From: Bacteroidaceae bacterium
Lineage (GTDB): Bacteria > Bacteroidota > Bacteroidia > Bacteroidales > Bacteroidaceae
Direction of reading: 5' to 3'
Assembly (NCBI GenBank): GCA_011959205.1
Contig: BLLV01000106.1
Coordinates: forward strand, 1 to 44,465
DNA: 44,465 nucleotides
A program made the position numbers and the translations under genes. Positions 864 to 14,938 of the stretch are shown here, piece by piece (positions within the stretch are counted from its first letter, which is position 1; every line of letters starts with the position of its first letter). The notes under the pieces were generated by a model that saw only the letters and a list, made by a program, of their open reading frames with translations, had not been told where the DNA came from and searched no databases.

Positions 864-1883
864 TCAGTCAAACTCGACTAATATGCGGAATACCTTTCCG
901 GGAGCTGCCGCCCATTCTTCCATAGCCTGTCGTGCAGTCTCGGGCTTGGCTACTTTGCTGATCAATTCATCCTTTGGGCAAGTTCCTTGTTCCATGTAGC
1001 GGATAACTGCTCTGAAATCTGCGGGCAGTGCATTACGCGATCCGCGGATATCAAGTTCTTTCTGGACAAAATATTTAGTTTGAAAAGAAACTTCTGATTT
1101 TGCATAACCTATACATACGACTCTTCCGGTAAATCCGACCTCATTGACGGCCATAACATAGGTTGCAGGACTGCCTACTGCTTCAATGACTGCATCTGGG
1201 CCGAATCCTTCCGTAATCTTAGTCAAGCGTTCGTGTACATTTTCTGTCATGGAATTGATGGTGTGGTGTGCGCCTACCCGTCTGGCAAGTTCCAATTTCT
1301 CGTCATCCAGATCTACGGCGATAACGGTAGCTCCGCGAAGAGCTGAACGTACAATAGCTCCCATACCGATCATTCCGCAACCAATGACCATCACTATGTC
1401 AATATCTGTAACTTGTGCCCGGGAAACCGCATGGAAGCCTACGCTCATCGGTTCGATCAGCGCGCAGTCACGAGGAGAAATTTGACTGGCCGGGATTATT
1501 TTGCTCCAAGGCAATGCGATATATTCACACATGGCGCCATTGCGTTGAACCCCCAGTGTTTCGTTATGTTCGCATGCATTCACTTTACTGTTACGGCATG
1601 AAGCGCATTTTCCGCAATTGGTATAAGGATTGACAGTGACGCTCATGCCGGGTTTTAATGATTCCGGAACATCCTCACCTATGGCTTCAATAACGCCTCC
1701 CACTTCGTGCCCCGGAATAACCGGCAGATTAACCATCGGATTACGTCCTAAGAATGTATTCAGGTCCGATCCGCAAAAGCCGACATACTTAATTTTCACT
1801 AGAACCTCTCCCGGTTTCAATACCGGTTTCTCAATGTCTACCACTTTCATTTCGGAAGGAGCGGTAATTTGAATTGCTTTCAT
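864..1883 (-). CDS. Zinc-dependent MDR dehydrogenase, probable L-galactonate 5-dehydrogenase (LgoD-like)
   Basis: This 339-residue medium-chain dehydrogenase keeps the full zinc machinery. Catalytic ligands are Cys37, His59-Glu60 and Glu144 (LIEP). A structural zinc site has Cys90, Cys93, Cys96 and Cys104. A Rossmann GCGMIG motif lies near residues 168-173. The LIEP...HAVSRA segment and the late KELDIRGSRNALPADF segment resemble E. coli L-galactonate oxidoreductase (LgoD/YjjN). It is the last gene of the leftward operon, after a sugar dehydrogenase and a lactonase. That order suggests it oxidises the aldonate at C5 to a 5-keto acid, D-tagaturonate if the sugar is L-galactose. The family is well supported. 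The substrate is inferred from the operon and from the L-galactose pathway reported for Bacteroides vulgatus. L-fuconate or a keto-deoxy-fuconate is the alternative substrate. Confidence 0.72.
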   Translation of the reverse strand: MKAIQITAPSEMKVVDIEKPVLKPGEVLVKIKYVGFCGSDLNTFLGRNPMVNLPVIPGHEVGGVIEAIGEDVPESLKPGMSVTVNPYTNCGKCASCRNSKVNACEHNETLGVQRNGAMCEYIALPWSKIIPASQISPRDCALIEPMSVGFHAVSRAQVTDIDIVMVIGCGMIGMGAIVRSALRGATVIAVDLDDEKLELARRVGAHHTINSMTENVHERLTKITEGFGPDAVIEAVGSPATYVMAVNEVGFTGRVVCIGYAKSEVSFQTKYFVQKELDIRGSRNALPADFRAVIRYMEQGTCPKDELISKVAKPETARQAMEEWAAAPGKVFRILVEFD

Positions 1884-1918
1884 TTTCTATTTGTTTTTAA
1901 GTGATAAGTGTCAGTTGG

Positions 1919-2842
1919 TTATTCTGACATGTTTTTAATGTAAGGAAGAGATACGAGATTTTTGAAACCATAAAATCTTTCAGCGTTTTTACCTAAAAAA
2001 AGTGTTTTCTCCTCTTGTGTCATTTCAGTCGTTTTGAGGATGAAATCGTAAGACATCTTGTAAGTGATGGCTGTAATGGTCCGCGGATAATCCGATCCCC
2101 ACATCAGTTTGTCCATACCGACCAGATCTGCTGCTGCTTTGATAGCCTTCACCGCTCCTGCAAACGGGTAGAATTCACTGTTGAACAACCAAGTGATGCC
2201 TCCCGATTCTATCATGACATGGGTATGCCGGGCCAGTTTTATTTGTTCCTGCCAATGAGGGGTTGTGACCATACCGAAATGTCCGATAGCGATTTTTAGT
2301 TGCGGACATTCCTGGATAATTTCTTTCATCTCCTGCACTTGCGTGTCTCCATCGGCCAGATCAATGGAAAGGATAATGCCTTTATCTTCCATGTAATGGA
2401 ACATTTCCATCATTTCGTCACAGTTCAGCATGATTCTTCCTTCTTTTAGGAAAAGGCGGTGTGCCGGGATTTTTATTGCTTTGAAACCAGAACTTATCAA
2501 TTCCTTGGTCTGTTGCAGATAACCGGGTTTACGAAATTCGCACATACCGCATACAAAGAAACGGTCTGGATATTTAGCGGCCACTTCTGCGAGGTATTCA
2601 TTCTGGATGCCATCAATAAATTCCTGAGTGACTACGGCAGCCGATACTTGTGCATAGTCCATGTTTGAGAGAAAAACCTCAGCACTATTCCGTCCGTCAA
2701 TCATAAAAGGCGGAACCATCTGACGTTCTTCCCCCATAAATAACGAACGTCCGTTGGCCAAAGTACGGATGGGCAATCCGTTGACCTCCGTGTCTTGCCG
2801 TAACCAAAGATGGGAATGTGTGTCTATTATGTTAAAATCCAT
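1919..2842 (-). CDS. Amidohydrolase-superfamily lactonase, probable L-galactono-/L-fucono-1,5-lactonase
   Basis: This 307-residue TIM-barrel protein belongs to the amidohydrolase-2 group. The metal-site motif is an early HSH (His9, His11), followed by IGHFG (His188) and GSDYPR (Asp251), the usual order in this group. Members of the related COG3618 family hydrolyse sugar lactones. Lying between a sugar 1-dehydrogenase and an aldonate dehydrogenase, it should open the 1,5-lactone to the free aldonate in the cytoplasm. Two ATGs occur in tandem at 2845 and 2842. The second is preferred because the Shine-Dalgarno-like AAGGAGGA at 2848-2855 sits 5 nt before it. Gaps are short: 17 nt from the preceding gene and 35 nt to the next. 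Alternative activities such as decarboxylase cannot be excluded from sequence alone. Confidence 0.7.
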   Translation of the reverse strand: MDFNIIDTHSHLWLRQDTEVNGLPIRTLANGRSLFMGEERQMVPPFMIDGRNSAEVFLSNMDYAQVSAAVVTQEFIDGIQNEYLAEVAAKYPDRFFVCGMCEFRKPGYLQQTKELISSGFKAIKIPAHRLFLKEGRIMLNCDEMMEMFHYMEDKGIILSIDLADGDTQVQEMKEIIQECPQLKIAIGHFGMVTTPHWQEQIKLARHTHVMIESGGITWLFNSEFYPFAGAVKAIKAAADLVGMDKLMWGSDYPRTITAITYKMSYDFILKTTEMTQEEKTLFLGKNAERFYGFKNLVSLPYIKNMSE

Positions 2843-2847
2843 CATTA

Positions 2848-2855
2848 TCCTCCTT
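2848..2855 (-). promoter_or_regulatory. Strong Shine-Dalgarno before the lactonase gene
   Basis: The minus strand reads AAGGAGGA, 5 nt ahead of the ATG at 2842. Such strong sites are unusual in Bacteroidota, where most starts lack one, and this one decides between the tandem ATGs. Confidence 0.55.
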
Positions 2856-2859
2856 CTTG

Positions 2860-3792
2860 TTATGAATTAGCCCAACTGACACGCATTTGTTCTCCGATAA
2901 TTTCTTGCACTTCCTTTACCAGATTCCAGTCGATGGGTTCTTCGGCATATGCTATATTTTTCAATACATTATCCGGATTGGCTGAACTGAACAATGTAGT
3001 GGCGATGCGTGGATTGCTGACAGAATATTGAATGGCCAGTTTCTCTATCGGGTAGTTTTTAGACTGACAATGTTGAACGGCTTTCCGGCAAGCTTCTACC
3101 AATGCTTGGGGAGCCGGATGCCACGCAGGAACTCCACGCAGGGAAAGCAATCCCATTGAAAGGGGGGAAGCATTGATGATACCGATATTCTTTGATTCAA
3201 AGTAATCCAGATAATCAGCCAGTTTCTCGTCATTCAGACAATAATGGCAAAAGTTGAGTACACTTTCCACTGTTCCGGACTCCGAGTGGTCAATGATCCA
3301 TTTCAAGTTTTCCAACTGCAAATCTGTGATACCTACATGTCTCACAACACCTTTCTTCTTAAGTTCTGCCAGTGCAGGTAAGGTCTCGTTGACTACCTGA
3401 TTCATGTCTGAAAACTCCACATCGTGTACATTAATCAGATCGATGTATTCAATGTGGAGTCTTTCCAAACTTTCATAAACGCTTTCCGTAGCACGTTTTC
3501 CGGAATAATCCCATGTGTTGACTCCATCTTTTCCATAGCGTCCCACTTTAGTAGAGAGGTAATATTTGTCACGTGGTATTTCTTTCAAAGCTTTTCCCAA
3601 TACGGTTTCGGCCTTGTAGTGCCCGTAGTAGGGAGATACATCAATAAAATTCATTCCATGCTCTACTGCTGTGTAAACAGCTTTGATACCCTCTGCTTCA
3701 CGGATATCATGAAAGACTCCTCCTAATGAAGATGCGCCGAAACTAAGATTGGAAACCCGCATACCGGTTTTCCCGATTTCATTGTAATTCAT
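2860..3792 (-). CDS. Aldo-keto reductase, probable L-galactose/L-fucose 1-dehydrogenase
   Basis: This 310-residue aldo-keto reductase has the complete catalytic tetrad: Asp51, Tyr56, Lys82 and His123, in the motifs DVSPYYG, LSTKVGRYG and NVHDVEF. It resembles plant L-galactose dehydrogenase along its length (FGASSLGGVF near residue 18, SPYYG, STKVGRY, FCHYCLND, ASPLSMGLL, WHPA). Those enzymes oxidise the sugar at C1 to the lactone with NAD. L-fucose is 6-deoxy-L-galactose, so both are plausible substrates. It is the first gene of the leftward operon. The start at 3792 is chosen because homologues begin MNYNEIG, and because a -7 box at 3826-3833 would place the transcription start downstream of the longer in-frame start at 3828. 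Confidence 0.75.
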   Translation of the reverse strand: MNYNEIGKTGMRVSNLSFGASSLGGVFHDIREAEGIKAVYTAVEHGMNFIDVSPYYGHYKAETVLGKALKEIPRDKYYLSTKVGRYGKDGVNTWDYSGKRATESVYESLERLHIEYIDLINVHDVEFSDMNQVVNETLPALAELKKKGVVRHVGITDLQLENLKWIIDHSESGTVESVLNFCHYCLNDEKLADYLDYFESKNIGIINASPLSMGLLSLRGVPAWHPAPQALVEACRKAVQHCQSKNYPIEKLAIQYSVSNPRIATTLFSSANPDNVLKNIAYAEEPIDWNLVKEVQEIIGEQMRVSWANS

Positions 3793-3825
3793 TGCTCTAT
3801 TTATTTTTAGATTTATTTCCGGCAT

Positions 3826-3833
3826 CAAAAATA
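3826..3833 (-). promoter_or_regulatory. -7 promoter element of the sugar-oxidation operon
   Basis: The minus strand reads TATTTTTG, matching TAnnTTTG, 33 nt before the ATG at 3792. I see no TTTG at the proper upstream distance, which would fit an activator-dependent promoter. Confidence 0.4.
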
Positions 3834-3909
3834 GAGGAATAACCTTTAGAAATGTGGTGGCAAGGAGTGAAAAAAGTACGTAAACCTTTGCGTAAAAATA
3901 ATGAAACGG

Positions 3910-4770
3910 CTACTTTTTATATAGGTCTCTATATTGCTGGGGAGTAACGCCTGTGATTTTTTTGAATAGGCGGTTGAAATAAGAATGGTCTTCATAAGCA
4001 AGGAGATAGGCTATGTTTTTTACAGGAATATCCTCTGTAATCAGAATTAATTGGGCTTTCTCTATTTTTTTCTGATTAATATATTGTAGCAGTGTGTTAC
4101 CGACTTCTTTTTTGAAAAGACGGATAAAATGATCTTTTGAAAGGCATGAGATTGCTGCCAATGAGTTTATATCTGCTGCTTTATAGATATTTTTTCGGAT
4201 GTGGGACAATACTTTTTGGATACGGTTATCGTTGACTTCCACTTTAGGTTTGGCGTCTTTTAAAAAGCGGGCAATAAGTTGATATACTATACCTCTGGAT
4301 TCGACTTTGTCACAGAAGGTACGCTGTTTATTTTTAATGATGTTTCTGATTAATGTGGGGTTGTTGTCATAGCTTGTCGGGTCGGATTGAGGAAGCTGCA
4401 TGGTAGGATTTATTTCACATAACCTTTTAATAAGTGGTAATTCTAGGTTGCCCGCAGGTATTTCTATCGGGAAATTCCAATCTTCCAGAATGCCGGATTC
4501 CGATTGATGGTCTTCATATATATGGAGATAATAATGAGTGAAATGAGAATTGCACTGATAACTATGAGTAGTGAATGATGGCACCAGATATAGATGATGT
4601 GGTTTTAGTTCCTGCATTCCATCGGGAAATATTATTTGGGCAGTTCCTTCCATTATATAATAGAGCCTGGTAAAAGGGCTGCTTACGTTTTTCCAGTTCC
4701 AGTCTGCATTGTGAATGGCTAGTCCTACATTCAATATAAGTAAATGTAATTGGTCGATTGATGGTGTCAT
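3910..4770 (-). CDS. AraC-family transcriptional regulator of the PUL
   Basis: This 286-residue protein has an N-terminal cupin-like sensor domain (about residues 25-130, including LYYIMEGTAQIIFPDG and HHLYLVPSFTTH). The C-terminal 100 residues carry the two helix-turn-helix units of the AraC/XylS family. The second unit has the typical NIAYLLAYEDHSYFNRLFKK, followed by GVTPQQYRD. It lies between the leftward sugar-oxidation operon and the rightward GH29-susCD operon and diverges from the latter. That makes it the obvious candidate activator of both arms, with a monosaccharide or its oxidation product as ligand. No hybrid two-component or anti-sigma system lies nearby to take that role. Regulator identity is secure; the inducer is inferred. 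Confidence 0.88.
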   Translation of the reverse strand: MTPSIDQLHLLILNVGLAIHNADWNWKNVSSPFTRLYYIMEGTAQIIFPDGMQELKPHHLYLVPSFTTHSYQCNSHFTHYYLHIYEDHQSESGILEDWNFPIEIPAGNLELPLIKRLCEINPTMQLPQSDPTSYDNNPTLIRNIIKNKQRTFCDKVESRGIVYQLIARFLKDAKPKVEVNDNRIQKVLSHIRKNIYKAADINSLAAISCLSKDHFIRLFKKEVGNTLLQYINQKKIEKAQLILITEDIPVKNIAYLLAYEDHSYFNRLFKKITGVTPQQYRDLYKK

Positions 4771-4817
4771 AGTCCTTAAGGTATTAGAATGAAAGATTCA
4801 GTTTCGTACAAAGTAAG

Positions 4818-4825
4818 CAAAAGTA
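4818..4825 (-). promoter_or_regulatory. -7 promoter element of the araC-family gene
   Basis: The minus strand reads TACTTTTG (TAnnTTTG consensus), 47 nt before the ATG at 4770. No matching -33 element was found. Confidence 0.35.
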
Positions 4826-4843
4826 TGTATATAATCCAATGGG

Positions 4844-4929
4844 AAATCGATATTTTCATATCAAATCACCTGTTTTGGTATTTATTTTTGAATTATCTCA
4901 GGTAAAAGTCGATATTGTCCTACATAATG
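4844..4929. promoter_or_regulatory. Candidate AraC operator: two direct repeats
   Basis: The 14-nt words AAATCGATATTTTC (4844-4857) and AAGTCGATATTGTC (4916-4929) share 12 positions and lie in the same orientation 72 nt apart. They sit in the divergent intergenic region upstream of the GH29 -7 box at 4965. AraC-family regulators often bind direct repeats, so these are candidate operators. This is inference from position and similarity. Confidence 0.35.
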
Positions 4930-4964
4930 GCGCATTTGGATAATATAAATAGGCTTTAGCTCTG

Positions 4965-4972
4965 TATATTTG
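4965..4972 (+). promoter_or_regulatory. -7 promoter element of the GH29-susCD operon
   Basis: TATATTTG matches TAnnTTTG and lies 39 nt before the ATG at 5012. The nearest TTTG upstream (4935-4938) is 26 nt away instead of about 20. The poor -33 element fits a promoter that needs the AraC activator. Confidence 0.45.
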
Positions 4973-5011
4973 CACTATTGATAATTGAAAAACATATAAA
5001 GCAATTATACT

Positions 5012-6655
5012 ATGAAAACAAAACATTTTCTTTTGGCTTCGGCTTTGTTGCTTTGGACGGGAGTTTTGGAGGCTCAGACTTATCAGGTACCTGTTTCAGA
5101 GAAAAATGAAAAAATGCAGGAGGGAGAGTTCGAACCTACTTGGAAATCATTACAGAACTATAAAGTTCCTGAATGGTTTAGAAATGCCAAATTTGGTATC
5201 TGGGCACATTGGGGACCGCAATGTGTGGAAGGGTCCGGCGACTGGATGGCGCGTTCTCTCTATTTGGAAGGTTCGCGCGAGTATAAGCACCATGTGGAAC
5301 ATTATGGCCACCCCTCCGAAGTAGGTTTTAAGGATATATTGCCTTTGTTTAAAGCCGAAAAATGGGATCCGGACAAATTGGTTTCCTTTTATAAGAAGAT
5401 TGGGGCTCAGTATTTCTTCGCTTTAGGTAATCACCATGATAATTATGATTTATGGGATAGCCAATATCAGGAATGGAATTCTATGAATATAGGTCCTAAG
5501 AAGGATATATTGGCGGGTTGGGCTGAAGCAGCTAAGAAAAACGGTCTTCCGTTTGGTATCAGTTTTCATGCGGATCATGCGTGGAGTTGGTATGAACCTG
5601 CTCAACGATACGACCGTCATGGTGAGAAGGCGGGTGTGCCCTACGATGGGTGTTTGACTAAAGAAGACGGTAAGGGTAAGTGGTGGGAAGGCTACGATCC
5701 TCAAAAACTTTATGCACAGGATCATCCTTTAAGTGCTGGAAGTTGGGCTGACGGTATGATTCACCGTCAATGGGCATGGGGAAATGGTGTTTGTATTCCT
5801 ACTCAAGAATATGTGACGAACTTTTATGATCGTACAGTCGATGCAATAAACCGTTATAATCCCGATTTGATTTATTTTGATGTAACTGGTGTACCGTTTT
5901 ATCCTATCAGTGATGCAGGTTTGAAGATTGCCGCACATTTTTATAATCACAACATGGTTGCTCGTAAGGGGGATTTCAGTGCTGTTATGTTTGGTAAAAT
6001 TCTTACCGATGAGCAACGTAAAGCTTTGGTATGGGATGTGGAACGAGGTTCTCCTAATCGTATTTATGAAGAGCCGTGGCAGACTTGTTCTTGTTTGGGC
6101 GGTTGGCATTATGATGCCAGATTGGCGGAGAACGGCTGGTATAAGAGTGCTTCCGATGTGGTGAAGTTATTAGTAGATGTTGTCAGCAAGAATGGTAATT
6201 TATTGCTTAATGTTCCTCTTCGGGCTGACGGTACTTTCGATGAAAAGGAAGAAGCCATTTTAAATGAATTCGGTGACTGGATGAATGTGAATAAAGAGGC
6301 TATTTATAACACACATCCGTGGAAAGTCTTTGGTGAAGGCCCTATAGCTGATTCAGATATCAAAATTAACGCTCAAGGTTTCAATGAAGGTGCTTATACC
6401 AAGGCTACTGCATCTGAAATCCGTTTTACTCAAACCAAGAAATATCTCTATGCTGCTGTTCTTGCATGGCCGGAAGAAAAGCAGGTTGTCATTAAATCGC
6501 TGGCCGCGGGAAGTGAACTGTATCCACGTGGTATCAGCCGTGTAGAACTTTTAGGATATGGTAAAGTGAAATTTAATCGAACCTCTGAAGGATTGATACT
6601 TTATTTGCCTGAAAAGCAGGTGAATAGTATAGCTCCGGTGTTTAAAATTAAGTAA
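5012..6655 (+). CDS. GH29 exo-alpha-L-fucosidase or alpha-L-galactosidase, exported
   Basis: This 547-residue protein opens with a signal peptide ending near LEAQ, so it is exported to the periplasm or cell surface. The catalytic barrel shows GH29 hallmarks: KFGIWAHWGPQCVEGSGDWMAR, then NHHDNYDLW, then DLIYFDVTGV, in which Asp290 sits where the family nucleophile is found. GH29 enzymes remove terminal alpha-L-fucose, and some related enzymes accept alpha-L-galactose. The neighbouring oxidation operon resembles an L-galactose pathway, so L-galactose release is a real alternative to fucose. It is the first gene of the rightward operon, 95 nt before susC. The acid/base residue is not assigned. 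Family membership is very sure; the sugar specificity is not. Confidence 0.85.
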   Translation: MKTKHFLLASALLLWTGVLEAQTYQVPVSEKNEKMQEGEFEPTWKSLQNYKVPEWFRNAKFGIWAHWGPQCVEGSGDWMARSLYLEGSREYKHHVEHYGHPSEVGFKDILPLFKAEKWDPDKLVSFYKKIGAQYFFALGNHHDNYDLWDSQYQEWNSMNIGPKKDILAGWAEAAKKNGLPFGISFHADHAWSWYEPAQRYDRHGEKAGVPYDGCLTKEDGKGKWWEGYDPQKLYAQDHPLSAGSWADGMIHRQWAWGNGVCIPTQEYVTNFYDRTVDAINRYNPDLIYFDVTGVPFYPISDAGLKIAAHFYNHNMVARKGDFSAVMFGKILTDEQRKALVWDVERGSPNRIYEEPWQTCSCLGGWHYDARLAENGWYKSASDVVKLLVDVVSKNGNLLLNVPLRADGTFDEKEEAILNEFGDWMNVNKEAIYNTHPWKVFGEGPIADSDIKINAQGFNEGAYTKATASEIRFTQTKKYLYAAVLAWPEEKQVVIKSLAAGSELYPRGISRVELLGYGKVKFNRTSEGLILYLPEKQVNSIAPVFKIK

Positions 6656-6682
6656 TGGAAATTTGTTGGATTATAAGGTTAT

Positions 6683-6705
6683 GCAGACCGTATTTTACGG
6701 TTTGC
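6683..6705 (+). other. Intercistronic hairpin between the GH29 gene and susC
   Basis: A 10-bp stem (6683-6692 with 6696-6705, one G-T pair) has a 3-nt loop and no T-run after it. It is therefore more likely an mRNA processing or stability element than a terminator. It lies 45 nt before the susC start. Confidence 0.4.
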
Positions 6706-6750
6706 TGGCCTTTGGTATACCTAATTATAAACAATTTAAATCTTAAAATT

Positions 6751-9700
6751 ATGAAACACAAAAGGCAACATGGAATTTTAGTATCCATAAGAATCTGTGC
6801 GATTCTGTTGTTTTGCTGCTTCTGCGGAGTTTTATCTGCACAAAATTTGCGAGAAATCAATGGAACGGTAACTGATGCATCGGGAGAAGCGTTGATTGGC
6901 GTTAGTGTGTTAGTAAAAGAAACTTCAAATGGTACCATTACGGATATTAATGGCAAGTTTTATGTAAATGCTGCTATTGGTTCTACACTTCAAGTTAGTT
7001 ATGTGGGTTACACTACACAAGATGTAAAGATAACTTCTGCATCTCCGTTGCATATTATTTTAAAAGAAGACACTAAACATTTGGAAGAGGTTGTAGTAGT
7101 GGGTTATGGAACTCAGAAGAAAGTAAATCTTACAGGTTCGGTATCGTCAATTACGGCTGATGAGCTTGCTAACAAGCCGGTAATGAGTACAGCTCAAGCC
7201 TTGGCAGGTTTGGCTCCTGGGCTTAGTGTATTGACAAATTCTGGTAATCCAGGTGCTGGGGCAACAGTCAGAATTCGCGGTACAGGAACTTTTTCAAGTG
7301 CAGGCAATGATCCATTGGTTCTAATTGATGGTCTTTCAGGAAACATTGACGATGTGGATCCGGCAGATATTCAAAGTATTTCCTTTTTGAAAGACGCTGC
7401 TTCTGCTTCTATTTATGGTAATCGTGCAGCTAATGGAGTAATTTTAATTGAAACAAAGAAAGGTGCCGAAGGTAAGACTTCCATTAGCTATAGCAGTTCA
7501 TTCGGTTGGCAAAAGGTTACTGAAATGCCCGATTTCCTTCCTTCTTGGGAATATGCTGAATATTACAATATGGCTATGCAGAACATGGGACGTCAAGATG
7601 CTTACAGTGAAGAACAGATTAGGAAATATAAAGATGGCAGTGATCCTGACAATTATCCTAATGTAAATCATTTGAAGTGGTTGATGGAAAGTGGTTCGGG
7701 TTTTCAGCATCAACATAATATCAGTGTCCAAGGTGGAAATAGCAAAACCAGCTATAATGTATCGTTAGGCTATCGGAATCAGGAAGGTATGACCGCCAAG
7801 ACTAATAATGAGCGTATGACTGCATTGGTTAGTTTGAGAAGCGAGATAGCTAAAGGATTGATTATGAATATAAACTTGAATGCATACAATAACAAATACC
7901 ATGCTCCTAATGGTTCTGGTGGTATTGGGGCTATTATTGGTTATTCTGTTCGTGAACCGTCTATTTATGCAGGAAAGAAATCGGATGGTAGTTTTGGTTA
8001 CCAAGATAATTATAGTCCAGAAGCATGGCTTAACAGTGAATCTTTTGTCGAAAATATCAGCCGTAATGTTAGAGGGACCGGTCAGTTGACATGGGAAACT
8101 CCTATAAAAGGGCTTTCTTTGATAGGAAAAGCTGGGGTAAGTTATTGGACAGGTTTCAACAAGTCTTACGAAGCGGAAACTTATTTTGATGAGAATAAAA
8201 CGGTAGGTCCGGCCAATTTATCTGTTAATTCATATAATAATACCTATACTACTTTTGATGCTATGGCTACTTATGAAAAGCAAATTCAAGACCATGCTTT
8301 TAAAATATTGATAGGCACATCAGTAGAACAATCTTGTGACAGAAGTTTGTATGGATATCGTAATACATTTCCTAACAATTACTTGTATGAATTATCATCG
8401 GGTGATAAGTCAACGGCGGACAATAGCAGTGGTCTAGGAGAATATGCATTGCTTTCTTACTTTGGTCGTATTAATTATTCTTTTAAAGATCGTTATTTGT
8501 TGGAAGGAAATTTCCGTTACGATGGCTCTTCACGTTTTGCCAAAGATAACCGTTGGGGATTCTTCCCATCTGTATCTGTGGGATGGCGTATTTCTGAAGA
8601 ATCTTTCTGGAAGGAAAGTAAAATATCCAATGTGTTTGACAATTTGAAGTTCCGTGCATCATACGGTGTGTTGGGCAACCAAAATATTGGTACTTATCCA
8701 TATCAACAAACTTACTCATTAGGGCATGATTATGTATTTGGTGGTACTTTGTTATCGGGTGCTTATCTTCCGACTTATAAGAATCAGAACATTACTTGGG
8801 AAAAAACAGCGATTACAGACTTTGGTATAGATTTTTCACTCTTTAACGGAACGTTAAACGGTACTGTTGATTATTTTTATAAATATACCTCGGACATCCT
8901 TTCTTCAGTTGAAGTCGCTGGTATTATGGGACGTGCTGTAGGACAATCAAATGTGGGGGCAGTATCTAACAAGGGCATTGAAACTATGCTGACCTACAAT
9001 GGTAAGATTGGTAGGGATTTTCGTTTTTCTATTAGTCCCAATTTCACTTGGTTGAAGAATGCGGTAGAAGAATTGTCTAATGGTGCTACAGAAGAACTCA
9101 ATAGCAATCGTATCGTTGGCCAGCCTTTAGGAATTATATATGGTTATGAAACGGATGGTCTGTTTGTTGACCAAGCTGAAATAGATAACGCCTCCGACCA
9201 ATTGGTAGATAAAGGTAGTTTGAAACCGGGTTATGTGAAGTATAAAGATATCAGTGGTCCCGATGGAAAACCTGATGGTAAGGTGGATGCACAGTATGAC
9301 CGAAAGGTACTGGGAAGTACCACCCCGAAATTTTACTATGGTTTGAATTTAACTGCTTCGTATAAAGGCTTTGATTTCGCAGCACTTATGCAAGGTTTAG
9401 GTGGACATAAGCGTTTGATAGGCTCTTATATGGCATATGCGTTCTACAACGGTGGTCAAATCCAGCGTTGGCAGGCTGACAATTGTTGGACTACAGATAA
9501 TCCGGATAAATGGGCTGAATATCCTCGTGTGGAAACACTCAACATGAATCATCCTAATTTGCAGACTTCCGATTATTGGCTTCGCAATGCTTCCTTCTTA
9601 CGTGTAAAAAATGTTCAGTTAGGTTATACGTTGCCCAAGAATTTGACAAAGAAGGTAGGTATGGAGCAGGTACGCATTTATGTAAGTGGACAAAATCTCT

Positions 9701-9819
9701 TTAATTTCAGCAGTTTTTATAAAGGTTGGGATCCTGAAAATGAGATTGGCACAGGTGATGGCCCTAACTATTATCCGTTGAATGCTATTTACTCATTTGG
9801 TTTTAATTTTAAGTTTTAA
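6751..9819 (+). CDS. SusC-family TonB-dependent outer-membrane glycan transporter
   Basis: This 1022-residue protein starts at the ATG that begins a clear signal peptide (MKHKRQHG... ending LSAQ); a longer in-frame start at 6655 would bury it. After the signal come a carboxypeptidase-regulatory-like domain (INGTVTDASGEALIGVSV), the VVVVGYGTQKKVNLTGSVSSI segment typical of SusC proteins, and a TonB plug with FLKDAASASIYGNRAANGV. A large beta-barrel follows, ending in FGFNFKF with a terminal aromatic. There is no N-terminal STN domain, so it is not expected to signal to an anti-sigma factor. That agrees with an AraC regulator for the locus. It imports an oligosaccharide together with the SusD encoded 13 nt downstream. 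The glycan cannot be read from sequence. Confidence 0.93.
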   Translation: MKHKRQHGILVSIRICAILLFCCFCGVLSAQNLREINGTVTDASGEALIGVSVLVKETSNGTITDINGKFYVNAAIGSTLQVSYVGYTTQDVKITSASPLHIILKEDTKHLEEVVVVGYGTQKKVNLTGSVSSITADELANKPVMSTAQALAGLAPGLSVLTNSGNPGAGATVRIRGTGTFSSAGNDPLVLIDGLSGNIDDVDPADIQSISFLKDAASASIYGNRAANGVILIETKKGAEGKTSISYSSSFGWQKVTEMPDFLPSWEYAEYYNMAMQNMGRQDAYSEEQIRKYKDGSDPDNYPNVNHLKWLMESGSGFQHQHNISVQGGNSKTSYNVSLGYRNQEGMTAKTNNERMTALVSLRSEIAKGLIMNINLNAYNNKYHAPNGSGGIGAIIGYSVREPSIYAGKKSDGSFGYQDNYSPEAWLNSESFVENISRNVRGTGQLTWETPIKGLSLIGKAGVSYWTGFNKSYEAETYFDENKTVGPANLSVNSYNNTYTTFDAMATYEKQIQDHAFKILIGTSVEQSCDRSLYGYRNTFPNNYLYELSSGDKSTADNSSGLGEYALLSYFGRINYSFKDRYLLEGNFRYDGSSRFAKDNRWGFFPSVSVGWRISEESFWKESKISNVFDNLKFRASYGVLGNQNIGTYPYQQTYSLGHDYVFGGTLLSGAYLPTYKNQNITWEKTAITDFGIDFSLFNGTLNGTVDYFYKYTSDILSSVEVAGIMGRAVGQSNVGAVSNKGIETMLTYNGKIGRDFRFSISPNFTWLKNAVEELSNGATEELNSNRIVGQPLGIIYGYETDGLFVDQAEIDNASDQLVDKGSLKPGYVKYKDISGPDGKPDGKVDAQYDRKVLGSTTPKFYYGLNLTASYKGFDFAALMQGLGGHKRLIGSYMAYAFYNGGQIQRWQADNCWTTDNPDKWAEYPRVETLNMNHPNLQTSDYWLRNASFLRVKNVQLGYTLPKNLTKKVGMEQVRIYVSGQNLFNFSSFYKGWDPENEIGTGDGPNYYPLNAIYSFGFNFKF

Positions 9820-9832
9820 AAACAAGAGCGTC

Positions 9833-11515
9833 ATGAAAAGAATACAAAATATAGCGGTGTGTGCTAAAACTCTTTTATCGGTATTTTTAGTAGCTGTTGG
9901 TGCTACAAGTTGTTCTGATTTATTAGATATGCAACCGCCTGCAGAGATTTCGGATAGTAATTTTTGGACGGGAGAAGGTGATGCCAAATTGGCATTGGTA
10001 GGTTGCTATCGATTTAGTGAAGGTTGGGCAAACGACAATTTTGACTCAGCTCAAGGCTTGCTTTATTTGGATTTTTGTGGAGGAAATGGCACCGAAAAGG
10101 AAAACTTTACCACTAACATGGCTAGTACTAATACGGTGGCAACGAATGGAAATCTAAATTCTTATTGGAAAACTTCTTATGAGAAACTTGCCAAGTATAA
10201 TACATTTTTGGATAATATAGGCAATTGTCCAATAGATGAAAATAAGAAAAAAGAATGGGTGGCTGAAATAAAAACTTTGCGTGCTTACTTTTTATTTAAC
10301 TTGGCTTTCTATTTTCAAAATGTACCTATGCCTTTGACTACATTGAGTGTGGAAGAAGCCAATACTATTGGGCAAACACCTCAATCAGAAGTGTATGCAC
10401 AAGTCGAAAGTGATTTGAAAGAATCGATTGACATTTTACCTCTTGAACAAAAGAACGAGAACTTGGGGCGTGTTTCCAGGGGGGCCGCTTGTACGTTATT
10501 GTCACGTTTGTATTTGGCACAAAATAGGTTTGCAGATGCAGCTGCTATATTGAAAAAAATTATTGATTCAGATGTGTATGCATTAGATCGTAGGAATGGG
10601 GATGATAGTTATGAAAAATTCTTTTATGATGGTGGTGAAACGAGTCCTGAGGCTATTTTCTCTATTTTAGGTTTGAAAGATAAGTTTACGAATGTACGCT
10701 ATATTTATATGTTCCCTGAAATGGTAGGCGGATGGCATCAGTTTGCTGTATATAACGAGCTGGTCAAGTCGTATTTTTGTGCGGATGGAAAGAGCATTGA
10801 TAAATCTGCAAATTATAATGATGATGATCCTTATGCTAATCGTGACATTCGTCTGTATGCTTCAGTATTTTTACCTCCATTGGGTAGTTATCCGGGCACA
10901 ACTTTTTTGGGAAAAACTTATAATTGTTATCTAGGTACTGGTACTTCGGACTCTTATAACCGTTTTACTTTGTTTAATGGCTATTGTCCAAAGAAAGGTG
11001 CGGATCCTAGCAACACGAATATTTGGGGTAACTATACCCATACTCCTTTGATGCGTTATGCCGAAGTGCTGCTTTCCTATCTGGAAGCTGTGAATGAGGC
11101 GGCTCCTGCCGATGTTGATCAATCATTGCTTGATTTGACTATCAATGACATTCGTGATCGGGTGAATTTATCAGGATATGCAATGGCGGATTTGGGTAGC
11201 CAGGAAGCTGTACGTGAAGCCGTACGTAAAGAACGTCGTGTTGAAATGGCTTTTGAAGGTCTTCGTTATTTTGATGTATTGCGTTGGGGGATTGCTAAAG
11301 AGTTGTTGAACCATACATTTACCGGAGTAAAACTGTCAGATGCTCCGTCAGCTCTTAACTATCGTGGTAGTGGTTCTAATGCTTCTCCTGTAGATGAAGA
11401 TATGTACTATCAATTCGAAAAACGTACATGGTCTGATCACAATCGATATTTTCCCATTCCGCAGAATGAGTTGAATGTCAATAAGAATTTGAAGCAGAAT
11501 GCGGGCTATAATTAA
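9833..11515 (+). CDS. SusD-family glycan-binding surface lipoprotein (RagB/SusD)
   Basis: This 560-residue lipoprotein has a signal peptide followed by the lipobox GATSC, with Cys27 as the lipidated residue; the start at 9833 puts the signal correctly. Typical SusD features follow: DLLDMQPPAEISDSNFW after the lipobox, then tetratricopeptide-like helices (EIKTLRAYFLFNLAFYFQNVPM). The C-terminal RagB/SusD signature includes VRKERRVEMAFEGLRYFDVLRWG and RYFPIPQNELNVN. It forms the lid over the SusC barrel, binds the glycan at the cell surface and hands it to the channel. It lies 13 nt after susC and 15 nt before the mutarotase gene, in one transcription unit ending at the terminator at 11931. Confidence 0.93.
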   Translation: MKRIQNIAVCAKTLLSVFLVAVGATSCSDLLDMQPPAEISDSNFWTGEGDAKLALVGCYRFSEGWANDNFDSAQGLLYLDFCGGNGTEKENFTTNMASTNTVATNGNLNSYWKTSYEKLAKYNTFLDNIGNCPIDENKKKEWVAEIKTLRAYFLFNLAFYFQNVPMPLTTLSVEEANTIGQTPQSEVYAQVESDLKESIDILPLEQKNENLGRVSRGAACTLLSRLYLAQNRFADAAAILKKIIDSDVYALDRRNGDDSYEKFFYDGGETSPEAIFSILGLKDKFTNVRYIYMFPEMVGGWHQFAVYNELVKSYFCADGKSIDKSANYNDDDPYANRDIRLYASVFLPPLGSYPGTTFLGKTYNCYLGTGTSDSYNRFTLFNGYCPKKGADPSNTNIWGNYTHTPLMRYAEVLLSYLEAVNEAAPADVDQSLLDLTINDIRDRVNLSGYAMADLGSQEAVREAVRKERRVEMAFEGLRYFDVLRWGIAKELLNHTFTGVKLSDAPSALNYRGSGSNASPVDEDMYYQFEKRTWSDHNRYFPIPQNELNVNKNLKQNAGYN

Positions 11516-11530
11516 TAAAGTTTCAATTGT

Positions 11531-11914
11531 ATGATTATAGAAGGATACAAGGTCAAAGAGTTTCAAGGTCCGGTGAAACGTTTCTGTCGGACTATGGACT
11601 TAAAAAATGATGCCGCATTGATTGCAGAATATGTTAATAGGCATAGTAGAGAAAAGGCATGGCCTGAAATCAAGGCAGGCATTCGTTCAGTAGGTATTTT
11701 AGAAATGGAAATATATATATGGGACAATCGATTATTTATGATTGTCGAAACCCCTGTTAATTTTGATTGGGAGTCGGCTATGGCTAAACTTGCAACATTA
11801 CCCCGACAACAGGAGTGGGAGGATTTCATGTCGATTTTTCAAAAATGTAAGGAAGGGGATTGTGCAGAAGAAAAATGGATGATGATGAGGCGTATTTTTC
11901 ATCTGTATGAATAA
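11531..11914 (+). CDS. RhaM-type (PF05336) sugar mutarotase, PUL copy
   Basis: This 127-residue cytoplasmic protein belongs to the L-rhamnose mutarotase family (DUF718/YiiL). Conserved blocks are GILEMEIYIWDNRLFMIVET, FDWESAMAKLATLPRQQEW and a C-terminal EEKW...RIFHLYE. Family enzymes flip the anomeric configuration of 6-deoxyhexoses so that the next enzyme receives its preferred form. Here it follows susD by 15 nt in a locus for L-fucose or L-galactose, so its likely job is to supply the correct anomer to the sugar 1-dehydrogenase. A clear homologue lies at 43476-43865 beside a ROK kinase. Family membership is sure; the sugar is inferred from context. Confidence 0.8.
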   Translation: MIIEGYKVKEFQGPVKRFCRTMDLKNDAALIAEYVNRHSREKAWPEIKAGIRSVGILEMEIYIWDNRLFMIVETPVNFDWESAMAKLATLPRQQEWEDFMSIFQKCKEGDCAEEKWMMMRRIFHLYE

Positions 11915-11930
11915 TTGAGGGGATGAGGAG

Positions 11931-11966
11931 AAAGAGGGTGCCCTTAATCAAGCACCCTCTTTTATA
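11931..11966 (+). terminator. Terminator of the GH29-susCD-mutarotase operon
   Basis: A perfect 11-bp stem (11931-11941 with 11952-11962) has a 10-nt loop, with T residues at the end of the right arm. It separates the operon from the downstream GH43 remnant and the GH31 gene, which may need their own promoter or readthrough. Confidence 0.8.
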
Positions 11967-12004
11967 AAATGTGATAGGTCCGATGGATTATACACCTTGT
12001 ACGT

Positions 12005-12401
12005 TTACCGACTCACAACATCCACATATCACTACTGATCGAAATCCCCGAAGGAGACATTATATCTACTACCGACTATAAACAAGGAGTGTGTGGCCCT
12101 AGACATGGATGTGTGTTTAATGTAGAAGGTACTGATGAGTATTATTTCGCCTACTTGGAGTTCGGACGTCGGAGTACCAATCGCCAGATTTATGTTAACC
12201 GGTTGGAATTCAATGAAGATGGTACGATTCGTCAAGTAAAGCCTGGCATGAAGGGGAACAAAAAAAATCAAGATAGATACAATTTATGCCTCCAGTATTG
12301 CCCAACCTCTAGACATAAAATCTATGAAGGATTCTTTGTTCAAACGGACAGAATATTTTGTATCCGAATTTGCCATAGACGGAGCTAATGGCTCGCGTTG
12401 A
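12005..12401 (+). pseudogene. Decayed GH43-like glycosidase fragment
   Basis: No intact start is present. One frame encodes EIPEGDIISTTDYKQGVCGP and CVFNVEGTDEYYFAYLEFG, then STNRQIYVNRLEFNEDGT, which resembles the end of the beta-propeller in Bacteroidota GH43 enzymes. At the eight-A run 12260-12267 the coding signal moves to the +1 frame and continues as IYASSIAQPLDIKSMK, then KRTEYFVSEFAIDGANGSR. That resembles the start of a GH43 accessory domain with a discoidin-like fold. It stops at TGA 12399-12401, and the rest of the gene is missing. The 5' catalytic part is also absent, because the sequence before 12005 is operon terminator. It is a remnant between the PUL operon and GH31. GH43 is judged from motif memory only. 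Confidence 0.6.
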
Positions 12402-12484
12402 AATGGAATATTTATTAATGTTGTAGGTTTTCTCAAATTCATGATATGGATATGAATCATTTAAGAACAATAAAATTAGAGCTT

Positions 12485-14938
12485 ATGAAACGAAATCTTA
12501 TTTTTATAGTCTGTTGTTTGTTAACTACTTGGGTCTGGTCGCAAGAATATCAGCGGACAGGAACTGGCATTAAGGCTTCTATCCCCGGAAAAAAAATAGA
12601 CGTGGAAGTGCAATGGTTCAACGCCAATAGCCTGCGTGTATTGAAAATGCCGCATGGGCAAACGATAGAGAAGAAAAGCCTTTCGGTTATTGCTAAACCT
12701 GAGAACACAAATCTCAAAGTTTCCACACCGGGGAATGGCAATATTGTGATGAAAAGTCGTTCACTGACCGTGAAATTGGATACACAAACAGGTATCCTAA
12801 CTTACGAAACAAGCAACGGGGCATCCCTATTAAAGGAATTGGAGAATGTGAAAGCATTCACACCTGTCAATGATGCCGGTCGGGTCACTTATTCTGTTTA
12901 CCAAAGTTTTGAAACCGATAAGGACGAAGGACTCTATGGCCTCGGACAACTTCAGAATGGACGGATGATGCAACGTGGGATGGAGAAGTATCTAGTACAA
13001 GGCAATACTGAAGACGTAACTCCTATTTTTCAATCGACTAAAGGATATGGTGTGTTTTGGGATAATTATGCAGGCACGACGTATGTTGACAATGAGCAGG
13101 AAACGTCGTTCCGTTCAGATGTAGGCGATTGCATCGACTATTATTTTATGTATGGTGGTTCGGCTGACGGTGTAATTGCACAGATTCGCTCGCTGACCGG
13201 TTCAGTCCCTATGATGCCTTTGTGGAGTTATGGGTTTATGCAAAGCAAAGAGCGTTATAAGAGTCAGGATGAAGTGGTGGGTGTCGTGAAGAAATACCGT
13301 GAACTGGGTATCCCGCTTGATTGTATCATTCAGGACTGGCAATATTGGGGGAGTAACTATTTATGGAATGCAATGGAGTTTCTGAACTATGAATACCGTG
13401 ATCCGAAGAGGATGATTGATGAAGTCCATGGTTTGAATGCACACATGATGATTTCCATTTGGTCTTCTTTCGGTCCGAAGACTAAACCTTTCAAGGCTCT
13501 TGAGGAAGAAGGGTTACTGATGGATATGGCTACATGGCCTGAATCGGGTGTAGAAGGCTGGCCACCTAACTTTGACTATCCCTCGGGTGTGAAGGTTTAT
13601 GATCCATATCATCCGAAGGCGCGCGATATTTATTGGAAGTATCTGAACAAAGGTATTTTTCAACTTGGTATGGACGGATGGTGGATGGACTCGACAGAAC
13701 CTGACCATTTCAATCAGAGAGATTCGGATTTTGACCGGCAGACTTATCTCGGTTCTTTCCGCAGCGTACGGAACGCTTTCCCGCTTGTGACGGTAGGAGG
13801 AGTGTCTGACCATCAGCGTGCTCTGACTCGTGACAAACGTGTCATTATTTTGACCCGTTCGGGATTCTTGGGGCAACAACGTTATGGCTCAAATGTATGG
13901 ACGGGCGATGTCGGTTCTTCATGGGATATGTTTCGTAGGCAAATCACTGCCGGATTGAATTTTTCCCTAACTGGTATGCCACATTGGAACACTGACCTTG
14001 GCGGATTCTTTGCCGGCTCTTATAACAATAGATTGGGTAATGGAACAGCAACAAAAAATCCTATGTTCCATGAATTGTATGTGCGTTGGTCGCAGTTCGG
14101 TGTATTTTGTCCGATGATGCGCAGTCACGGGGCCGATGCACCTCGCGAAATTTTCCTCTATGGTAAAGCAGGTGAGCCAGTGTATGACGCATTGGTCGAT
14201 GCTGTGAAACTCCGTTATTCGTTGATTCCTTATATCTATTCTACATCATGGGAGGTAAGCCGCCGCAATTCTACGTTCATGCGTGCATTGTTCATGGACT
14301 TCCTCAATGATCCCAAGACATGGGACATTGGCAGTGAGTATATGTTTGGATCGGCCTTTCTAGTGGCTCCCGTACTGCATGCCCAGTATACTCCCGAGCA
14401 GGTGCAGAAACTTTTGAAAGAGAATGAAGGTTGGGAACGCAAAGCCCAGGAGTCTGCCCCTCCTCTCTTGTCGGTCGATTTTACCCAGCCTAAAGAGATG
14501 GAAGTGTATTTGCCTGCCGGTAGCCAATGGTATGATTTCTGGACGAACGAAGTGGCAGAAGGCGGGCAGAAGCTGAAGGTGACGACTGTGTTCAATCGTA
14601 TTCCGCTTTATGTACGTGCTGGAAGCATCGTGCCGTTAGGTCCTGATGTGCAATACGTGGGCGAGAAGAAATGGGACAATCTCAAGGTTTGTGTTTATCC
14701 TGGTGCCGATGGTAATTTTGTGCTTTATGAGGATGAAGGTAATAACTATAATTACGAAAACGGTGCTTATACTGAAATTCCGATGACTTGGAATGATGCC
14801 AAGCGGACATTGTCTATTGATGCACGCCATGGCTGCTATGAAGGGATGCTGGATGAGCGGAAATTTACAGTTCGAATGCCGGATGGAAGTGAAAAGACAG
14901 TGCTTTATAAAGGAACAAAAATAAATGTGAAATTTTAG
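12485..14938 (+). CDS. GH31 alpha-glycosidase (alpha-xylosidase/alpha-glucosidase type), exported
   Basis: This 817-residue protein begins with a signal peptide (MKRNLIFIVCCLLTTWVWSQ); the start at 12485 is chosen over an upstream in-frame ATG because it fits that signal. GH31 landmarks are IPLDCIIQDWQYWG, the nucleophile region GMDGWWMDSTEPDHF (Asp402), and RSGFLGQQRYGSNVWTGD with the candidate acid/base Asp475. The later MRSHGADAPREIF and RYSLIPYIYS segments also fit the family. Bacteroidota GH31 enzymes with a WMD[AS]TEP motif include xyloglucan alpha-xylosidases, but glucosidases and galactosidases also occur. I see no PA14 insertion like that in some alpha-xylosidases. It is separated from the susCD operon by a terminator and a pseudogene, and a terminator follows at 14980. 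Confidence 0.87.
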   Translation: MKRNLIFIVCCLLTTWVWSQEYQRTGTGIKASIPGKKIDVEVQWFNANSLRVLKMPHGQTIEKKSLSVIAKPENTNLKVSTPGNGNIVMKSRSLTVKLDTQTGILTYETSNGASLLKELENVKAFTPVNDAGRVTYSVYQSFETDKDEGLYGLGQLQNGRMMQRGMEKYLVQGNTEDVTPIFQSTKGYGVFWDNYAGTTYVDNEQETSFRSDVGDCIDYYFMYGGSADGVIAQIRSLTGSVPMMPLWSYGFMQSKERYKSQDEVVGVVKKYRELGIPLDCIIQDWQYWGSNYLWNAMEFLNYEYRDPKRMIDEVHGLNAHMMISIWSSFGPKTKPFKALEEEGLLMDMATWPESGVEGWPPNFDYPSGVKVYDPYHPKARDIYWKYLNKGIFQLGMDGWWMDSTEPDHFNQRDSDFDRQTYLGSFRSVRNAFPLVTVGGVSDHQRALTRDKRVIILTRSGFLGQQRYGSNVWTGDVGSSWDMFRRQITAGLNFSLTGMPHWNTDLGGFFAGSYNNRLGNGTATKNPMFHELYVRWSQFGVFCPMMRSHGADAPREIFLYGKAGEPVYDALVDAVKLRYSLIPYIYSTSWEVSRRNSTFMRALFMDFLNDPKTWDIGSEYMFGSAFLVAPVLHAQYTPEQVQKLLKENEGWERKAQESAPPLLSVDFTQPKEMEVYLPAGSQWYDFWTNEVAEGGQKLKVTTVFNRIPLYVRAGSIVPLGPDVQYVGEKKWDNLKVCVYPGADGNFVLYEDEGNNYNYENGAYTEIPMTWNDAKRTLSIDARHGCYEGMLDERKFTVRMPDGSEKTVLYKGTKINVKF

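Follow-up and report, generated by a model that had tools for sequence, protein, structure and literature searches.

Organization of the locus

A divergent locus at positions 864 to 14938 of contig BLLV01000106.1 from a Bacteroidaceae bacterium (assembly GCA_011959205.1) was analyzed as a candidate polysaccharide utilization locus (PUL) for L-galactose. The window, i.e. the whole stretch of 44,465 nucleotides that was analyzed, is contig C106 of a host genome of 4.22 Mb in 305 contigs. A previous sequence-only reading had assigned an aldo-keto reductase (AKR), an amidohydrolase-fold lactonase and a dehydrogenase to a leftward arm, and a glycoside hydrolase of family 29 (GH29), SusC/D, a RhaM-type protein and a GH31 to a rightward arm, with an AraC regulator between the arms. 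All of these genes were found as open reading frames in that arrangement, and their families were recovered in a Pfam scan of ten proteins, to which the statements on absent families made below also refer. The locus is real, coherent and largely as described there, and its catabolic half is neither rare nor new. Absent from that gene list were the scars of GH97 and GH43 genes in the gap at 11915-12445 and the loss of a permease gene of the major facilitator superfamily (MFS).

The import genes comprise a SusC-like TonB-dependent transporter (6655-9819, plus strand, probable ATG at 6751) and a SusD-like lipoprotein (9782-11515, plus strand, probable ATG at 9833). They scored 996.9 bits against TIGR04056 (cut-off 368) and 164.2 bits against PF07980, respectively, and thus form the SusC/SusD pair that marks a PUL. 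No endo-acting enzyme family was detected among the ten scanned proteins. On its left the locus is bordered by marC, and to its right lie parC, glyS and a gene for an S41 peptidase, all named from the reading frames of the window. The probable ATG starts inside the longer frames of AKR, SusC, SusD and GH31 were assigned by eye.

The catabolic arm

The leftward arm is located on the minus strand and encodes a zinc-type alcohol dehydrogenase (ADH; 864-1883), an amidohydrolase (1919-2845) and the AKR (2860-3828, probable ATG at 3792), which are predicted to act as L-galactonate dehydrogenase, L-galactono-lactonase and L-galactose dehydrogenase. The best PDB match of the AKR, at 75% identity, is 7lh6, an entry named 'L-galactose dehydrogenase'. 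For Phocaeicola vulgatus, BVU_0219 has been reported as L-galactose dehydrogenase and BVU_0222 as L-galactonate dehydrogenase, and L-galactose is catabolized there by way of D-tagaturonate (PMC12632266). In the closest relative of the locus, L121 of genome G293, the gene order AKR-lactonase-MFS-ADH fits the numbering BVU_0219 to BVU_0222. We take G293 to be probably P. vulgatus ATCC 8482 and BVU_0220 to be the lactonase. The proteins of the window share 94% (ADH), 94% (lactonase) and 96% (AKR) identity with their counterparts in L121/G293, so that the AKR is classed as an orthologue of the BVU_0219-type enzyme and the ADH, given the same gene order, as one of the BVU_0222 type; as far as they are drawn from G293, both assignments hold if that genome is P. 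vulgatus. That the three enzymes constitute the set leading from L-galactose to D-tagaturonate largely holds as a prediction from orthology.

An alternative would be a locus for fucosylated glycans, in which the GH29 is an alpha-L-fucosidase, L-fucose is passed to a FucI encoded elsewhere and the AKR arm oxidizes L-fucose or represents a side pathway. This is regarded as rather unlikely. FucI does lie elsewhere, in a separate pair with a FucP-like gene on a different contig of the host genome, which argues against a fucose locus here. An L-fuconate route would need a sugar-acid dehydratase, and none was found among the ten scanned proteins. Moreover, the lactonase reached 27.3 bits against the L-fucono-1,5-lactonase model NF052480, whose cut-off is 400, and its assignment as an L-fuconolactonase was rejected on this score. 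For the L-galactose route, the host genome contains a gene above the cut-off of NF002969, which we take to be a UxaB-type model, and a PF04295 gene, presumably of the altronate-dehydratase family. The three-step oxidation of L-galactose that the sequence-only reading had linked to Bacteroides vulgatus is thus supported by 94-96% identity to the G293 set at the same site, by the separate FucI and FucP-like genes and by the UxaB-type gene.

Distribution of the predicted L-galactose genes in the family

The AKR was searched at E<=1e-60 in 301 genomes of the family and was found in 137 of them, at 141 places, which contradicts the expectation that a locus for L-galactose would be uncommon. Stretches of 20 kb at most were examined for 112 of these places; the 29 places left out were 19 within 4 kb of a contig start, 8 at 4-7 kb, a second piece in G246 and G000 itself. 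Since 17 of the 112 stretches were shorter than 19 kb, the counts are lower bounds: the lactonase and the ADH were each found in 104 places, MFS in 70, RhaM in 40, GH29 in 37 (27 of them with RhaM), AraC in 36, GH2 in 7, GH97 in 6, FucI in 4 and SusC in 3. The best match to 7lh6 among these 112 places and the window was 79% identical. Identity of 7lh6 with the P. plebeius gene of L043 was considered and rejected, as the letters differ along the alignment.

The GH29 matches near the AKR (above 450 bits, 37 of 112 places) comprise 28 with 60% identity or more to the GH29 of the window and 9 at 48-52%. The latter form a second GH29 group, in some places accompanied by GH97 or GH43 (L156, L195, L206, L207, L213, L215, L224, L239 and L268). 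By chance, GH29 would be expected in less than 1% of 20-kb stretches, given a density of one copy per 3.6 Mb (7 genomes of about 28.8 Mb in total contained 8 matches). The neighbourhood of AKR and GH29 is no chance effect.

Comparison with the closest relative and gene losses

In G293, the same site reads marC, ADH-MFS-lactonase-AKR-AraC, a divergent GH29-SusC-SusD-RhaM-GH97-GH31 arm and then the same S41-type gene. The AraC proteins are 97% identical, and in the import arm the identities are 93% for GH29, 76% for SusC, 67-69% for SusD, 71% for RhaM and 92-93% for GH31. The DNA alignment showed 90% identity over 1-1900, 82% over 1904-11916 and 90-92% in the outer flanks. Because SusC, SusD and RhaM (6655-11914) are much more diverged (67-76%) than the adjacent genes (92-97%), an exchange of this stretch as a block is suggested. 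In comparison with the P. vulgatus BVU_0219/0220/0222 pathway, as read from G293, the window thus shares the order of the catabolic genes, the site beside marC and 94-96% protein identity, but differs in the missing MFS gene, the GH97 that is a scar, and the diverged SusC, SusD and RhaM.

The DNA alignment ends at 1900 and restarts at 1904, and between the aligned blocks G293 has an extra 1.28 kb containing the MFS gene. Accordingly, the junction at 1884-1918, between the lactonase and ADH frames, cleanly lacks the 1,260-bp MFS permease gene of L121/G293. Behind RhaM, 28 codons at 11956-12039 (plus strand) are 86% identical to residues 464-491 of the G293 GH97 (the GH97 in L141), and a GH43 remnant at 12041-12398 (plus strand) matches residues 258-327 of an L066 protein at 62% (12041-12256), followed by a second matching segment. 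From these two scars, the ancestral order was probably RhaM-GH97-GH43-GH31.

No second close copy of the G293-type MFS was found in the host genome, which contains two matches of 32% and 27% identity. The 32% match is located on another contig and is named FucP-like here because it adjoins a fucose isomerase gene; FucP of Escherichia coli carries L-galactose. FucP-type MFS proteins (48-71% identical to the FucP-like protein of the host and 32-34% to the G293-type reference permease) were present in 19 of the 112 AKR places and G293-type MFS proteins in 51. In 11 of the 19 places the FucP-type gene sits between lactonase and ADH (L214, L216, L218, L230, L236, L242, L246, L248, L251, L255 and L270); three of these also hold FucI (L246, L248 and L251) and eight do not. 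Such permeases therefore do occur in the slot of the L-galactose pathway, and in this strain L-galactose is probably taken up by the FucP-like permease encoded next to fucI, in place of the lost MFS protein.

It was also considered that the locus is decaying in this strain, with permease, GH97 and GH43 gone and growth on L-galactose no longer supported. The permease deletion and the two scars are what such a process would leave. On the other hand, the genes that are left still form long open frames, a FucP-like MFS gene of the type found in related loci is present in the genome, and a short gap between lactonase and ADH is common in other genomes: of 102 places in which the gap was measured, 42 have a short one, and in 7 of the 42 an MFS match lies at another position of the stretch. 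Decay is judged quite improbable.

The GH29 exo-enzyme

The GH29 gene (5012-6655, plus strand) encodes a protein with an Alpha_L_fucos domain (285.9 bits). Its residues D290 and E344 are invariant in 11 sequences and align with BpGH29, which places the protein in GH29; their counterparts in BpGH29 are presumably the catalytic Asp nucleophile and the Glu acid/base. The nearest PDB entries are 7snk, 7ljj/7lk7 and 7lnp at 277-273 bits, of which 7snk is labelled alpha-L-fucosidase there and 7lnp has Asn at the aligned position of the catalytic Asp. BpGH29, from the porphyran PUL of P. plebeius, has been reported as an exo-alpha-L-galactosidase with the structures 7SNK and 7LJJ (PMC12316285). It is the best structural relative of the GH29 of the window, with aligned catalytic residues, yet the similarity amounts to 273-277 bits only, and no porphyranase or sulfatase family was detected among the ten scanned proteins. 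A structure model computed from 11 close sequences was poor, with a mean predicted local distance difference test (pLDDT) score of 48. At least 8,000 relatives were found at E<=1e-30; among the 120 matches listed, three had a functional name from their source, in each case alpha-L-fucosidase. From its relatives, the protein is a candidate alpha-L-galactosidase, perhaps acting on alpha-L-fucose also.

Linkage of GH29 to the AKR was assessed in the best 80 GH29 loci and in a GH29 tree of 118 rows, a quick tree with a simple model. Under a slightly looser rule than simple presence in the fetched DNA, 23 of the 80 loci were linked and 31, each with flanks of 8 kb or more on either side, were unlinked; the other 26 had a shorter flank. 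In the tree, linkage was scored in 92 rows (61 linked, 31 not) and changed 15 times; the 26 unscored rows had a flank below 8 kb, and with 37 rows taken from AKR places the sample over-represents AKR-linked rows.

Several of these results weigh against a locus devoted to L-galactose. The AKR was absent from the fetched DNA in 59 of the best 80 GH29 loci and present in 21, and 31 of the 92 rows scored in the tree were unlinked despite 8 kb or more of DNA on each side. FucI lay within four of the AKR places (L246, L248, L250 and L251), and the permease loss could mean decay of the locus. Within the GH29 itself, Tyr288 stands beside the nucleophile where BpGH29 has Trp. In B. faecis, which is closely related to B. 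thetaiotaomicron, one relative of the GH29 of the window was found at E<=1e-40, which is 78% identical; since it is the sole one, BT3665 may well be the B. thetaiotaomicron orthologue of the window protein. BT3665 belongs to the same network cluster as BpGH29 and prefers 2'-fucosyllactose in the report describing it (PMC11189522), so that an L-galactose specificity of the GH29 is unproven.

The preference of BT3665, the Alpha_L_fucos family of the protein, and the occurrence of FucI in 4 and of FucP-type permeases in 19 of the 112 AKR places are also the points that speak for the fucosidase alternative, whereas the nearest solved structures belong to an L-galactosidase. Some members of this GH29 group now filed as fucosidases may be L-galactosidases. 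Two further loci with related proteins were observed. In B. faecis MAJ27 (L041, 8901-11647), the same site beside S41-, parC- and glyS-like genes holds AraC and GH29 without the L-galactose genes. A contig labelled Paenibacillus (L060) carries a 66% identical GH29 together with AraC and SusC-like matches, and is therefore probably a misbinned Bacteroidales contig.

The RhaM-family protein

The rhaM gene (11531-11914, plus strand) encodes a RhaM-family mutarotase, with 97.5 bits against Pfam rhaM (cut-off 23.4) and 24.5 bits against the YiiL equivalog model TIGR02625, below its cut-off of 99.6; no PDB match was found at E<=0.001. In 80 rows of the GH29 tree scored for both AKR and RhaM, 42 had both, 27 neither, 7 AKR only and 4 RhaM only. 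RhaM changed together with the AKR in 7.3 of 11 independent pairs and in the opposite direction in none (median sign-test p 0.016, range 0.008-0.063). As RhaM tends to accompany the genes for catabolism, this argues for an L-galactose mutarotase, a substrate that is predicted from linkage.

GH31 and the glycan source

The GH31 gene (12446-14938, plus strand, probable ATG at 12488) encodes a candidate alpha-xylosidase. Its best three PDB matches, 7kmp, 5jou and 2xvg, are all alpha-xylosidases (497-533 bits), and it reached 179.3 bits against the YicI model NF007940, below the cut-off of 606. At E<=0.001 only GH31-type domains were found, and the PA14 domain that we take to mark xyloglucan-type GH31 enzymes (CjXyl31A/BoGH31A) was not among them. 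An algal source such as porphyran or agar was set aside, as no agarase, porphyranase or sulfatase family was detected among the ten scanned proteins. Maize-type arabinoxylan and rhamnogalacturonan II (RG-II) both fit, with xylan slightly ahead.

If the glycan is maize-type glucuronoarabinoxylan, which is tentatively favoured here while remaining short of probable, GH29 and GH31 would strip L-galactose and alpha-xylose side chains and do the work of the GH95 and GH31 of PUL-XylL in B. ovatus. In that PUL, the GH31 BACOVA_03422 is reported as a corn-xylan-specific alpha-xylosidase, the GH95 BACOVA_03438 as an alpha-L-galactosidase and the GH97 BACOVA_03423 as acting on alpha-D-galactoside (PMC4491172). 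The exo-activities predicted for the window are similar, with GH29 replacing GH95, but xylanase, GH115 and intact GH43 are missing among the ten scanned proteins, and no L-galactose catabolic genes were noted in the descriptions of PUL-XylL that were consulted. Relatives of the GH31 adjoin Pfam-confirmed GH43 in L179 (67%, also with GH8 and an esterase), L182 (61%) and L183 (55%), and the presence of GH31 domains only in the protein likewise agrees with xylan. L178 and L184 look similar with unconfirmed GH43 neighbours, and the one neighbour scanned in L184 was thioredoxin-like. A 57% identical GH31 about 16 kb from GH95 in G032 and G177 is a hint only; as proof of a XylL orthologue such proximity is weak, since each of the 18 genomes searched has 2-13 GH95 matches. 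In contrast, the closer relatives of the GH31 (71-75%, L173-L177) adjoin a large regulator-like gene, as read by eye; the stretches of L173, L174, L175 and L177 are without GH43-, SusC- or SusD-like matches, and L176 has weak GH2- and SusD-like ones. The nearest solved GH31 structures are, we assume, xyloglucan enzymes, and this also weighs against xylan.

RG-II or another pectic side chain is a somewhat less likely source. L-Galactose occurs in RG-II, and GH29 would release alpha-L-galactose from chain A and GH31 alpha-xylose from its branch, the lost GH97 and GH43 corresponding to BT_3661 and BT_3662. The relative of the GH43 scar matched 5msx, presumably BT_3662, with 635 bits, and the best PDB match of the G293 GH97 was 5xfm, presumably BT_3661. 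BT3661 is described in PMC10492685, and BT_3662 is reported to cut alpha-1,3-linked arabinofuranose in grape RG-II, but the same report states that its subfamily, GH43_34, acts on arabinogalactan as well (PMC8939339). In the window, both GH97 and GH43 are scars, and none of the signature families of RG-II degradation was detected among the ten scanned proteins.

The putative control region between the arms

The AraC-type regulator (3910-4770, minus strand; 97% to L121) and the GH29 gene are separated by a gap with two exact copies of TCGATATTNTCNTA on the plus strand, at 4847-4860 and 4909-4922, which are putative AraC operators. With one mismatch allowed, TCGATATTNTCNTA had 4 matches in the whole window against 0.26 expected from shuffles. 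Of 19 divergent AraC-GH29 gaps, that of the window included, 12 contain the motif TCGATA[TA], with 20 hand-counted hits against 2.29 expected from simple shuffles; these operator counts are descriptive, because the same sequences had served to define the motif by eye. Upstream of GH29, TATATTTG at 4965-4972 (plus strand) is presumably a Bacteroides-type -7 box, its TTTG core being the same in 5 of 5 aligned sequences. The AraC protein may switch both arms from paired sites upstream of GH29.

Proposed function and significance

Taken together, the locus is probably a divergent PUL that salvages L-galactose by glycan import, exo-cleavage and oxidation, an interpretation held with moderate confidence. 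Gene content, orthology, deletions and the downstream genes are read directly from the DNA; activities and cell locations are predicted, as are the control by AraC, the substrate of the mutarotase and the replacement of the permease. SusC/SusD would import plant cell-wall oligosaccharides produced elsewhere. In the periplasm, GH29 would release terminal alpha-L-galactose, perhaps alpha-L-fucose too, and GH31 alpha-D-xylose. L-Galactose would enter the cytoplasm by the FucP-like permease beside fucI, where the RhaM-family protein may interconvert its anomers. The AKR would then oxidize L-galactose to the 1,5-lactone, the amidohydrolase would open the lactone and the zinc ADH would yield D-tagaturonate, which UxaB and altronate dehydratase encoded elsewhere in the genome could pass to the hexuronate route. 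AraC between the arms would switch both from the paired sites.

In a more specific version, the PUL would be dedicated to L-galactose: the GH29 clade would consist of terrestrial-plant alpha-L-galactosidases, RhaM would be an L-galactose mutarotase that follows a retaining glycosidase and precedes an anomer-selective dehydrogenase, one AraC would couple capture and oxidation, and an L-fucose permease would replace the dedicated one here as in the slots of other genomes. This is quite possible, albeit held at somewhat less than even confidence. The proposal of the sequence-only reading that import is coupled to oxidative L-galactose breakdown is supported by catabolic orthology, separate L-fucose genes and the operator-like repeats, and fails in the rarity claimed for the locus.

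Two known systems are similar in part. The Luteolibacter lguABCDEF cluster also follows the D-tagaturonate route, and its L-galactose dehydrogenase groups with BVU_0219, but it serves L-glucose too, and the genes listed for it in the report, as a minimum set, name no SusC/D or glycosidase (PMC12632266). In the agarose PUL of B. uniformis, the pathway for its rare sugar, anhydro-L-galactose, is likewise part of the locus (PMC5849685), but sugar and enzymes are different. No joint description of the import half and the L-galactose arm was found in the literature searched, which covers few subscription journals. For a related gut bacterium the steps of oxidation have already been described, and the import half is predicted.

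If true, the proposed function would connect a pathway already known in gut Bacteroidales, that for L-galactose, with plant glycans as its source and with a group of exo-enzymes now filed as fucosidases. The deletions in this copy represent a natural experiment on the dispensable parts of the locus. If part of the GH29 group are L-galactosidases, the predictions of diet-to-microbe models would change.

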